A stretch of DNA of 64,000 nt from assembly GCF_963678975.1 (NCBI RefSeq), contig NC_089278.1, positions 13,931,959 to 13,995,958 on the forward strand, given 5' to 3'. A model generated the notes under the pieces. That model searched no databases. It saw only the letters and a list, made by a program, of their open reading frames with translations, and had not been told where the DNA came from. Position numbers and translations under genes: made by a program. Origin of the DNA: Dysidea avara. Its lineage: Eukaryota; Porifera; Demospongiae; Dictyoceratida; Dysideidae. Below are positions 9,201 to 62,333 of this stretch, one piece after another (the first letter of the stretch is position 1; each line of letters starts with the position of its first letter).

Positions 9201-12200
9201 CTCACAGGAATCTTCGTTAGTGCTACCCCAGATTGCTCCACAAGTATTAGCACTTGACTCAGCTAGTATCAGGTGTAAGCCGAGGGCTTGGAAGGTAATG
9301 CTTGTGGGAGAAGGTGCTGATGATGCTGGAGGAGTGTTTGATGAGACCATAGCTCAAATGTGTGAGGTGAGTGAAGTGCTGAGGCACTTGATGGCGGTAA
9401 ATAATCAGACATCGGGTAATCAAGTCTAATGTGAGGTAATATAGGCAGTCAAATTATTTTACTGATCAATGTAACATTATTAAAATCAAAACAGATTGAA
9501 GAACTATATTAGTAGAACATAGTTCAAAAAATTGTGTACTTCATGCACTTTGTGATACAGTTGTGAAACTTTCAACATAAATTTTAATTCTTGTAACATT
9601 TTTTTTAAGTGCCATTGCAGGTTTGACTTTTGGTTACCTCTACACCATTTTTGCATTCAAAATTCATCATTATTTTTGCCTTTGTATTTCTGAGGCATTA
9701 TTTTACAGAAAATGAAAGGTCTTGTTGAAATAAACAACTTGGTTTTTATATCCACCCTTGAGGGATACACTGTAAATTACCAAACTACTAATGGGCAGGT
9801 AATTTCATGGCTAACATAAATGATCATAACTTGTGAATGAAGTCATCTATTCAACTTCAAATATAACCAAGTTGTTTCTTTCAGCATTTATTTGAAATGT
9901 AAAAACAATGCTTCAAGCAGATGAAGGCAAAAATGATGAATTTTCAATGCAAAAATGGCTGTAACTTCACCAAAGGTAAAATAGGACTACTGTAAATTGC
10001 TTTTTTTTCATTGTAGAATAATTTTCACATGTAAAAACTTGTATGAAAATTTCTTACATGAAATTTTTTACATTAGATCAAACTACTCTAATACAGCAGT
10101 CATACACGTAAATCATACAAAAATATTTTTACACGAAAACTTTTATCATAACAAGTTTTTGCACGAAAATATAGCAAATTACGGTATATCAAAACTAAAT
10201 ATCATAAGAAGTGCAATCATGTGGACAGTTTCATAATTGTATCACACATGACACACTGCTCACACTATGCCACTCTATTGTATTACTGCAATACTGTATA
10301 AATCTTGTAGAAATTGCTTATAGTGTACATGAAATATACTGCATTACTATCTCACATTGTGCTGTTGTTTAAACTACTGAGCTGTGTTCCAGTGATATAG
10401 AAATATATTGTATGTGTTATACAGGAAATGGAAGGCGGTAAAGTTAACTTATTGATACCAACCCCTAATGCTCAACAGAAAGTTGGTTTCAACCAAGACA
10501 GGTGTGTTTGTGTGTATACACAAGCATGCGTGTGTGTGCGTGTGTGTACCTGTCATGTGCAGTGTAGTTTGTGCATTGCTGTACCTATGCATATCATATC
10601 TATGAATTTCCATGGGGGGGTGGGGGAGGAATAAGGTTTATAAGAGTAAGGAAAGAGGTGATGGTGTAAAGGTCTGTGTGCACATAGCATCTAGAAAGGT
10701 TTGGGAACATACTCCCCAAGGAAAGTTTTGGATTATAGAATCTCTCAGATTGCTTCTGGTACATTTTCAGGTCACTAGAATGACCAGAAGTTTGTACCTT
10801 TGCTTTTGCTTAAAATTCAAGGGTGGTAGGAATAGCGATATACTGTATTAGTGCAGTTAACCGTTATATGAACAACCACATATTCACCTCTAGTTGTTCT
10901 ACCACACAGGTTTGTGTTTAATCCCAACTGCACCACCAAGAAGGACTTACAGCATTTGAAGTTTTTGGGTGTCTTATTTGGAGTGGCCATTAGGACAAAG
11001 AAGCCTCTACAGTTACACATTGCTCCTCCCATGTGGAAACTGCTAGTTGGAATGTCACTGACAGTGAAAGACTTGGAAGATGTCAGTTACTGGTGTACAT
11101 CAGAAAAAAAATTCATGTGAAATTATTTGTATCACATTGTGCATATATTTTCATAGGCAGAATTTGATTTTTAGTTTTGATAAACTAATGTTATACCCAT
11201 GAGATGCTTCGGTGCCCTTATAGAGTTTTTTTACTTTTAAAAATCTGTGTGCTTGGTTGTTCTTGTTTGCTACCTGTAAATAACTGCCAAGAGGTGTTGC
11301 ATTACACTGTGTACACTATTTAGATTGACTTGACATTTGTACAAGCACTGGTGGGGATAAGAGACGTTGATAAAAGTGGAGTCACTAAAGATGTGTTCTC
11401 TGAGGTAAGTGGTTGTATATCTGATAGGATGAGATTTACTATAAGTGAAAACTTTACATAGTGTATACCTGGACGCACACACTTTTCAGATGTTAGTTGG
11501 TGATTTAGACATTTGATATACTCAGATAAGACATACGTTGGGATGGGATAGTCACATTAAAATAAAAACAACTAAATACTAGTTACTCATTACTTTAAAC
11601 CCATGTAATTCAGTTGCTTAGTAACTAAAAGTTACATTACTAGTTACTTTTATATGTTTGTTTGTTTACTTTTGTAATATGTTTTCATGAATCATGATTG
11701 TTATACTACTCAGATATGCCTTAGCAAGGGAGGAAGAGAACTATACATATATGCACTTCCTAAAAATATTAATTTTGTGCCCATTTCAGCTCAGTTTCAA
11801 CTATTTGCTCTGTCTATTACTCAAGCTGAATCATGAAGAACAGCACATAGAATGTGTCTGCTTATGGGCTGTCTGATCACTAGTTACTATGTAACTTAGT
11901 TACTTATTGGGCAGTTATTCTTAAAAAGTAATATATTATATAATTTAGTTACCAAAATAACCAGTAACTCCGATTAATTGTGTGGTTTGATTTTAACTTG
12001 TAAGTGGGATTGTGCTGTATTGCTTTTGTTACTACAACCATCCTGTGTTCTTGTGCAGGTAATACCGTTAGACTCATTTGAAGCTCTGAGCATCACTGGC
12101 AAGTTTGTACCAATAGTCCCTGGTGGTAGTCATATCAGACTGACTTATGCCAACCGCAAGGAATACTGTGATAAGGCTCTTCAGTTTAGACTACATGAAC

Positions 12201-60900: not shown

Positions 60901-62333
60901 ACAGTAAACATACATGGAGGTTGTATGGTGGAGGTTGTATGGTACATGTAACATGCACAATATTTCGAGTTGGGTAGTCACTACTAGCAGCAGACAGTCT
61001 GCAGTTTGCCAACATTAGCCCTGTCCTCTTGCTTGCAAACCAACCCACGATATCATGTGATTACAGTGCCCCTTGCCTATTGCATCATGTGATCTCACCC
61101 CCACCCCCACAGGTAGAGGAGCAGGAGCTACAAGAGTTTACTAGCTGGTTGGAGGGAATGAGTACTGACAGTAGTGACCCCTTCATACAACACATCATGG
61201 ATGTTGATGTCATCCCTTGTTTGAGCTTCACCAATGAGACAGTGAGTGGAACCACATCAAATAGGACACCTCTGTGATAAGGACGTTTGTTCCATTTATA
61301 TTAGTGTACACATATTTAGACCCCTGAAACCAGGGACACCTTCCCATTTGTATTAGTGTACTAACTGATGTTTCCTCCACTTTCATTAGTTATCCCAGTC
61401 ACTGGTCACTGCTGTACAACAGAATTCACTACAGATGGAGTTGATATCTAACACTTCAGACTGTACCAGGTACAGAGGGGTATACATAATGTATCATGAG
61501 TTAATATGTGTTGTGTAGTGAGTGTGCTCTCACTGGGGCTAAAGATAAACCTTGTCAGTATCGTATGAGATTGAAGGATTCTGATAGTTGGCACTATATC
61601 TCACTTAGTTCAAGGAACAAGGTAACCACTAGCTTGTCCAGTTAGTTTGATCATTGTGTTCCTCTCCAGATTGCTACTGTATGCAATTTCTTTATGTTCC
61701 TTCGTCACATTCAACAGGGCCTCATTAAAACCACCAGTGAGTTGTGTGTATGTATATGAGTGGTCCTACACACATTTTTTGTTTATAATTTTTTGCTTGT
61801 ATAGTACCATCACACACAGCAAACACTTTTCTTTTAAATACAACACTTAGTGCTCCAATGTCATGGCATTATGTTGTCAATTTACCATACCAAGTAATGT
61901 TGTTTTATCCTTTTTACCCGGTAGGTTGGTTAAAAATATAAAATTGAGTGTAGAACTGTTCTATTGGACTATTAAAAGGCTTGGCCCCACAATGTACAGG
62001 AGTCTACAGCTATGATCACAGCATTTGTAGTTATTTACTTAGCCCATCACATCCATGATTATTTGGTATAACAGCTGCTAGCTTAACTTCTTTTGATTGT
62101 GTCCCGTACTTATTTTGGAGAGAGGAGAGAAGCATAAAGCTTGCTCTCTAATGACTCTCCTGTACTATTTTTATTTTAACTTGCTGAAGGATAGCAGCAA
62201 ATCTATATTATTGTCGTGATTGTGTTCTCTTTCATTCTCTATAGCCAAAAATATTTATATTGAATTGTGTAAACTTCAAGTATCCATGCACATGGCAAGA
62301 CTTGGGATTGAGGTGAAGGCAGCAAACAATTGA
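51965..62333 (+). CDS. RAB3IP: Rabin8/RAB3IP-like guanine nucleotide exchange factor for Rab8, complete, 9 coding exons, 472 aa
   Basis: Exons: 51965-52522, 53212-53307, 59376-59453, 59608-59826, 61113-61241, 61390-61469, 61519-61621, 61670-61736, 62245-62333. An in-frame TAG at 51935 supports the ATG at 51965. Residues 1-170 are acidic, Ser- and Pro-rich ([14 protein letters not shown]). The Sec2-type coiled coil runs from about 178 to 265 ([39 protein letters not shown]), the part that in Rabin8/Sec2 binds Rab8/Sec4 and drives GDP release in exocytosis and ciliogenesis. The C-terminal half keeps family blocks: [57 protein letters not shown]. Length matches the family (about 475). It could equally be called RAB3IL1-like, since sponge-level genomes may hold a single ancestor of both. 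The 6-kb second intron is full of repeats. Confidence 0.92.
53323..53412. repeat. (GT)n/(GTCT)n microsatellite
   Basis: GT run, then two near-identical TATGTCCCCGTGTGTG units and GTCT repeats, starting about 15 bp after the donor of exon 53212-53307. Confidence 0.9.
53720..54316. mobile_element. MITE in the RAB3IP-like gene's second intron
   Basis: Starts TACCGTATAGTAAAAAACTT and ends AAGTTTTTTTTCTATACGGTA (last 20 bases shown approximately), with inner inverted pieces around TTGGCG and CGCCAA. A nearer right end (TTTTACTGTACGGTA, about 53845) suggests either a short member or one nested in another. Confidence 0.65.
56578..56869. mobile_element. hAT-like MITE with C/G-rich interior
   Basis: Ends CAGGGCTCAACCCAGA and CTAGATTAACCCCTG, with TTGTA on both flanks. 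Contains GAGGGGGCGAAGTAAG and CCTAGGGGGGGCAAT. Similar in style to 8016-8283. Confidence 0.65.
57328..58428. mobile_element. Deleted hAT transposon with transposase remnant
   Basis: Ends CAGAGGCGTAGGAAG and CTTCCTACGCCTCTG are perfect inverses. Flanks are similar (atatacat and atatgcac nearby) but not an exact duplication. The minus strand holds a piece of hAT C-terminus (57916-58122). Confidence 0.8.
57916..58122 (-). pseudogene. hAT transposase C-terminal (dimerisation) fragment
   Basis: The frame ends [14 protein letters not shown] followed by a stop. The ERSFS core preceded by a hydrophobic stretch (LLMVAVTV) is the signature of the hAT C-terminal dimerisation region. The rest of the transposase is missing, so this is a relic inside a deletion derivative. 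Confidence 0.6.
59294..59340. repeat. (GT)n/(GC)n microsatellite
   Basis: GTGTGTGTGCGTGCGTGCGT tract 36 bp upstream of exon 59376-59453. Confidence 0.9.
60377..60977. mobile_element. 601-bp MITE rich in GCATG words, RAB3IP-like gene intron
   Basis: Ends CTACCCAGCTCGAAATAT and ATATTTCGAGTTGGGTAG are inverted for about 18 bp and more loosely for about 45. TCA lies on both flanks, consistent with a 3-bp duplication. The interior holds at least ten GCATG words and many ACATGCATG and CATGTA inverted pieces. It ends 135 bp before exon 61113-61241. Confidence 0.8.

Follow-up and report, generated by a model that had tools for sequence, protein, structure and literature searches.

A ~28-bp box inside small DNA transposons of several lineages, a putative protein-binding site in the genome of the sponge Dysidea avara

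Introduction

In the Brassicaceae, E2F sites have been amplified by miniature inverted-repeat transposable elements (MITEs) and Helitrons (Henaff et al. 2014, as described in an excerpt of PMC12595863), and approximately 85% of E2F motifs lie within transposons according to the same excerpt. In animals, the portion of PMC12221973 that concerns placozoan loop anchors locates their motif in Mutator terminal repeats, and for ctenophores it describes the C2H2 zinc-finger proteins CTEP1 and CTEP2 with their boxes; in root-knot nematodes, unrelated satellite DNAs contain common conserved boxes, including a CENP-B-box-like motif (excerpt of PMC3694981). Here we describe a box of ~28 bp in a 64,000-nucleotide stretch of the sponge Dysidea avara (RefSeq assembly GCF_963678975.1, contig NC_089278.1, positions 13,931,959 to 13,995,958 of the forward strand), hereafter the window, and across the genome. 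We tentatively read this box as a putative protein-binding site that is carried and spread by unrelated small non-autonomous DNA transposons, and we give that reading slightly less than even weight.

The subterminal repeats of hAT and CACTA elements bind the transposase, belong to one family each, and lie near the element ends. The Dysidea box resembles them as a short repeated motif in transposons, often present several times in one orientation, but it is internal, it crosses families, and some elements whose ends are of the same kind lack it; on this last count, it does not qualify as a subterminal transposase-binding repeat. Like the E2F sites of Brassicaceae, it is one short box inside MITEs of several superfamilies; unlike the E2F site, which has 10 bp and a known protein, it spans ~28 bp, forms polar tandem arrays, has only a putative protein, and occurs in another kind of genome (compared with the excerpt of PMC12595863). 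As in placozoans and ctenophores, a transposon-tied box is found in an animal genome, and in ctenophores the box is also tied to C2H2 zinc fingers. Whereas those cases, as presented in the excerpt of PMC12221973, concern a single Mutator family or thousands of loops with a GC-rich motif, the box described here is AT-rich, occurs in several lineages at an extrapolated ~10^5 sites, and is known from sequence alone. As in the nematode satellites of the PMC3694981 excerpt, a short box is conserved while the surrounding repeats diverge; however, the repeats here are dispersed MITEs and the sequence is different. Overall, the present box differs from the compared systems in length, copy number, number of lineages, and polar arrays.

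Results

The original prediction, based on the window, described a motif of roughly 19 bp that was scattered in both orientations, inside different MITE families and also in plain intron. We collected 118 copies with ≤3 mismatches from 264 kb, consisting of the window and 20 regions (10 kb each) selected because they surround exact hits; loci L001, L002, L003, L005, and L006, which are contained in L009-L012, were excluded from scans. Across these copies, the conserved block starts abruptly at [GC]T, continues with GACTGYTCTATTAGAGTAT, and decays past [CAT]TCGATCT, and base composition is near flat on both flanks outside the block. The box is a ~28-bp unit, [GC]TGACTGYTCTATTAGAGTATMTCGATCTT; its left edge is sharp, its first letter is T in 115 of the 118 copies, and its tail is T-rich. 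A length of 19 bp was thus too short, as the conserved block extends from the S-T before GACTG to approximately GATCT, and the TCTCGATC tail noted previously belongs to the unit.

The scattered motif is real and is commoner than had been noted. With ≤3 mismatches allowed, the window contains 15 sites, compared with a mean of 0.03 and a maximum of 1 in shuffled sequence; exact 19-mers in the window are the copies at 27910, 37337 (minus strand), 37375, and 41025. Within the 550.8-Mb genome (108 contigs), the exact 19-mer occurs 18,189 times and the exact 29-mer TGACTGYTCTATTAGAGTATMTCGATCTT occurs 12,799 times, whereas the backwards pattern of each occurs 0 times. A 29-bp weight matrix built from the 118 copies identified 153 sites above 8 bits and 146 above 12 bits over its 273 kb, vs 0 when that sequence was reversed. 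At a threshold of >10 bits, there are 20 matrix sites in the 64-kb window (0.31 per kb), and 15 of the 17 positions originally listed coincide with one of them; the other two listed positions correspond to an indel copy with one inserted base (33629) and to a weak copy with three mismatches (61954). Some of those coordinates were off by 1-2 bases, the actual positions being 10083, 12249, 41056, and 60334. Six random 6-kb regions (36 kb, outside matrix building), placed regardless of the motif on C2-C6 and C8, contained 14 sites above 10 bits (0.39 per kb overall) and 0 when reversed, with at least two sites in every region. Extrapolated from these densities, the genome contains about 170,000-215,000 sites, a figure that has a large error owing to small counts.

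Six pieces of the box, 13 to 15 letters each, had no match in the PMC literature library searched. Exact GACTGYTCTATTAGAGTAT had no match among viral contigs or the prokaryotic genome contigs searched, and the family B copy in the window had no phage match; a viral or prokaryotic origin was rejected on these grounds. An Rfam search over the 264 kb returned no match, and a structured RNA was rejected accordingly.

Carriers of the box were defined by in-sample alignments and by a search for terminal inverted repeats (TIRs) with target-site duplications (TSDs). The box occurs within at least five lineages, namely a C/D/E/K clade and families B, F, T, and A, four of which have 8-bp, 5-bp, or TA duplications. 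Earlier claims that no single element explains the copies, and that these lie within different MITE families, are borne out by the different ends, which were found for four lineages, and by the different target duplications. Family B (386-460 bp, TIR TAGGGACCCGCCGATTATG) has both an 8-bp TSD and the box in 7/7 copies, and it carries the box in both orientations. Families D (TIR CAGGGGCGGTGGAGC/CATAGGCGGTGGAGAC), E (TIR CAGCGGCGGAG/CATAGGTGGCGGAAA), and K (TIR CAGGGCCGTCCAGA) have an 8-bp TSD in 4/4, 2/2, and 2/3 copies, respectively, the third K copy (L045) being too near the locus edge for testing. Family C has TIR CAGGGGCGGATCCAG and a 5-bp TSD; it shares a longer common skeleton with D, E, and K, and the four constitute one clade. 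Family F (399-401 bp, TIR TAGGGCTGGGCGGTAT) has an 8-bp TSD in 4/4 copies, one with a mismatch. Two pairs of terminal repeats lack a duplication, an F-type pair at L013:629-1379 and an E-type pair at 57328-58428 of the window, and these may be chance pairings. The short TIRs of families B, D, E, F, and K start with T/CAG, but D and E start with CAT at the right end, and one D copy (L030) starts with CAA; we take these five families, with their 8-bp TSDs and short TIRs, to be hAT-type MITEs. Family T is 234 bp long including TA at each end, has paired CAGTAGACCCTCGGTTATC ends, and is represented by one complete copy (L007:1436-1669); with its TA duplication and paired terminal repeats, it is presumably a pogo/Tigger-type MITE.

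Family A is a several-kb repeat with a 31-bp array. Within the window, the long 31-bp repeat array, of CAGGGTGATTTGTTTGTAGCTGAACTCTCTACA type, extends from 24377 to ~27139; it lies in a several-kb repeat that was also found in L014, L015, L019, L023, L024, and L028. An inverted repeat at 23932-24259 (arms of 159 bp, 99% complementary, 10-bp gap) adjoins the family A array in the window. MITEs nest at this family, as C-type copies adjoin or interrupt it.

A hand count yielded 27 distinct elements, of which 23 contain a matrix site; most of the regions counted had been selected because they hold an exact copy. This count includes L004, whose duplication (CCCCC) is of low complexity, and L045, which starts close to its locus edge and resembles a second copy of the L022 locus. 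The raw tally was 45 pairs (40 with a TSD, 36 with the motif), with some elements repeated under several terminal-repeat labels. Paired TIRs with a TSD enclose 22/103 clusters (8 bp in 17, only 5 bp in 5) vs 36/400 control positions (8 bp in 24, only 5 bp in 12), so MITEs are abundant in this genome regardless of the box. Flanking sequence recurs elsewhere in the sample for 77/103 clusters vs 106/200 random positions.

In all elements with ends found, the box is internal; therefore, a preferred insertion target, one of the options originally offered, was rejected as a general explanation and applies to isolated cases at most. The window provides one such case, a family B MITE (TSD TCTATTAG) with duplications at 37098-37105 and 37536-37543, whose joined flanks form a motif-like site of 16.1 bits; this box-bearing element landed in another motif-like site. 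A second B copy (L027:1573-2018) has a similar duplication, TCCATTAG.

Where units of the box are adjacent on the same strand, their spacing is 17 bp (12 pairs), 21 bp (12 pairs), or another value up to 32 bp, and a few are farther apart. Of the 63 multi-unit clusters, 57 have the 3'-most unit as their best-scoring one. An intact TCGATC tail (≥5/6 letters) is present in 52/63 last units vs 5/71 upstream units; in these counts, copies of the same family are not independent, and many regions were picked for an exact hit. Genome-wide, there are 1,145 triple arrays, compared with 1 for the backwards control. Among the first ~100 triple arrays listed, all on C1, there are several dispersed families as well as local expansions. 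Eight fetched arrays have periods of 20-21, 21, 25, 28, 29, 30, and 32 bp and at most nine units. The array in L055 has nine 30-bp units vs four in L059, its relative by eye; among the other expansions, a D2-like element contains four units of 28 bp, a pogo-like element four of 32 bp, and L057 six of 21 bp. A satellite was rejected, since the arrays examined are short (≤9 units) and dispersed.

We compared substitutions inside and outside the box, a comparison that the picking of box-bearing elements biases toward conservation. Between families C, D, E, and K (10 pairs from 5 elements), substitutions affect 48/399 positions in the box vs 258/732 outside. Within families (8 pairs, non-independent, with copies mostly not selected for an exact box), they affect 29/364 positions in the box vs 273/2,212 outside (Fisher p = 0.017). 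The outer units of family B, which were partly selected for exactness, are well kept in 7 copies, with mismatch plus gap fractions of 0.0 and 0.054. Two loci, L025:1150-10000 and L026:992-9872, form an 8.9-kb duplication with 96.4% identity, ~155 kb apart on C1; this pair was excluded from the within-family sum.

Among 126 clusters, 39 were not linked through their flanks to any other sampled cluster. Within the unbiased regions, family-unlinked sites scored lower than linked ones (10 vs 15 clusters, Mann-Whitney p = 0.056, a trend only), as expected for decayed relics; copies assigned to plain intron by the original prediction may likewise be old relics. A 44-bit pair at L029:4004 has one flank 16-mer that is single in the genome. 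A flank 16-mer of the window site at 47482 occurs in one other place (L063), where homology ends at 16 bases and there is no box; this match is due to chance.

Other features of the window

The motif sites and box-bearing elements in the window are listed in Table 1. In addition, a tandem array with a 19-bp period occupies ~990-1730, with ~90-99% identity over the central shifts listed. Two adjacent open stretches on the minus strand at 30248-31033 match TNP-like RNase H and GTP-binding insertion domains, domains known from P-element/THAP9-type transposases. Exon-like open stretches at 22074-22460 and 36421-36768 match immunoglobulin I-set domains, which indicate an animal host.

Table 1. Coordinates of box sites and box-bearing elements in the window.
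Feature	Position	Strand	Details
Motif site	10075..10103	-	34.9 bits; within a repeat common to L015:15-210
Motif site	12241..12269	-	20.1 bits; flank without match in the sample
Motif site	16280..16308	-	40.3 bits; in a distant relative of the C/D/E MITE clade
Family E MITE, 356 bp	16873..17228	-	TIR CAGCGGCGGAG/CATAGGTGGCGGAA; 8-bp TSD CATGTATA on the + strand
Two units 17 bp apart, in family E MITE	16988..17033	-	43.2 and 22.3 bits
Family A repeat	24377..28256	+	31-bp repeat array, then motif pair, then shared 3' region
Two units 17 bp apart, in family A	27891..27936	+	15.0 and 47.3 bits
C-type MITE	33421..33756	+	TIR CAGTGGCGGATC; 5-bp TSD CATAG
Motif copy with one-base insertion, in C-type MITE	33628..33655	+	Reads TGACTGCTCTAATTACAGTATCTCGATC
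Family B MITE	37106..37535	+	TIR TAGGGACCCGCCGATTATGC; 8-bp TSD TCTATTAG; target is a motif-like site
Motif site, left arm of family B central inverted pair	37329..37357	-	45.9 bits
Motif site, right arm of family B central inverted pair	37373..37401	+	41.4 bits
Motif site	39655..39683	+	43.2 bits; exact C-variant
Motif site	40883..40911	+	31.2 bits
Pogo-like (family T) MITE, part	40959..41147	+	TIR CAGTGGTACCTCGATTATC
Two units 31 bp apart, in family T element	41023..41082	+	34.4 and 21.2 bits
Motif site	47342..47370	+	22.3 bits; flank without match in the sample
Motif site	47481..47509	+	35.5 bits; one flank 16-mer without homologous second place in the genome
Motif site	60326..60354	-	24.2 bits
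Weak copy, three mismatches	61954..61972	+	No matrix site above 10 bits

Discussion

The box lies inside MITEs of different kinds, as do the transcription-factor sites that MITEs have amplified elsewhere. Because a long, asymmetric box has remained recognisable as the unrelated transposons around it changed, and because it multiplies in direct arrays that close with one complete unit, a binding site is the simplest account; of the three options in the original prediction (a tiny mobile unit, a shared protein-binding site, or a preferred insertion target), it is also the best fit, as judged by sequence only. A single sequence-specific protein, either a host factor or one derived from a transposon, would bind the box, and elements bearing it would propagate better or be better tolerated. 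Transposition of MITEs would then amplify the box across the genome, and local tandem duplication would extend arrays if several sites bind better than one; isolated copies would mostly be decayed elements.

Several observations weigh against a putative protein-binding site. The spacings of adjacent units are out of register with the helix, and polarity holds in 5 of 7 cases in the unbiased regions. Most fetched regions were picked for an exact copy, which inflates both conservation and polarity. Once an element has inserted, its box decays almost as the rest of it does: in 2 of the 8 within-family pairs (families M and H) it changed slightly more than the rest, the 8.9-kb duplication has 3/86 differences in the box vs 226/8,726 outside, and the inner unit of family B, which was not selected for exactness, differs by 0.211 vs 0.127 for the rest (7 copies, gaps included). 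The within-family evidence for conservation is mixed; taken together with the comparison between families, it suggests to us that propagating lineages are under constraint and that single copies, once inserted, are under little. Elements with the same kind of ends and no matrix site also occur (F-type L012:3193-3624; C-type L015:7723-8013 and L012:7388-8465); they keep their TIRs and TSDs, and their interiors are diverged or unrelated. The box is therefore not obligatory for transposition. Lastly, two good sites lie in apparently single-copy flanks, as judged by one 16-mer per site, which is weak evidence that some copies are in unique DNA.

The strongest rival of the binding-site reading is neutral hitch-hiking, which we consider rather unlikely; here, a functionless box from one or a few elements, being already common, would have been captured by other MITEs through nesting and recombination. 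MITEs do nest in this genome (C-type copies at family A, a B copy in a motif-like site), boxless elements share the same kind of ends, the decay of the box after insertion is near that of its element, and family B shows no conservation of its inner unit. However, the shared polarity (intact tails in 52/63 last vs 5/71 upstream units) is not a prediction of random capture, nor is repeated tandem growth at separate loci or the stronger conservation of the box between families C, D, E, and K. That all copies belong to one ordinary repeat family is very improbable: C, D, E, and K do form one clade with a longer common skeleton, but the ends of B, F, and T differ, and A, B, F, and T have no sequence in common with the clade other than the box, whether judged by eye or in the sample alignments. 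One repeat family was rejected because ends and target duplications differ, with alignments and element ends giving at least five lineages.

A tiny mobile unit, in which the 28-bp box would itself insert, singly or in tandem, into unique DNA and transposons, seems distinctly unlikely. The sharp left edge with unrelated flanks agrees with it, as do the 39/126 clusters without a flank link in the sample and the flank 16-mers at L029:4004 (single in the genome) and 47482 (without a homologous second place), but a single 16-mer per site is a weak test, differences in unit number resemble tandem duplication, and unlinked sites in the unbiased sample tend toward lower scores (p = 0.056), like old relics. 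Nematode PIWI-interacting RNA (piRNA) promoter boxes and the promoter elements of small nuclear RNAs suggest a further idea, that the box acts at the RNA level, either as an external small-RNA promoter box or as a sequence that gives rise to, or is targeted by, one abundant piRNA-like RNA (28 nt, first U). Its length near 28, the first T in 115/118 copies, and the T-rich tail would suit such a role, whereas the lack of any Rfam match in 264 kb leaves no visible link from promoter to gene, and family B carries both orientations; to this idea we assign a slim chance, marginally below that of a mobile unit.

Beyond a putative protein-binding site spread by MITEs, the box could be a genome-wide addressing box, either gained and multiplied by independent lineages for one protein or itself a mobile 28-bp unit that enters both unique DNA and transposons, a proposal that we regard as unlikely. 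If one protein reads the box, the ~10^5 sites would amount to a network, regulatory or architectural in nature, that several lineages of transposons have built. The length and exactness of the box would be enough for one pull-down to name that protein, and comparing the paired families with and without the box would allow the cost or benefit of a carried binding site to be measured.

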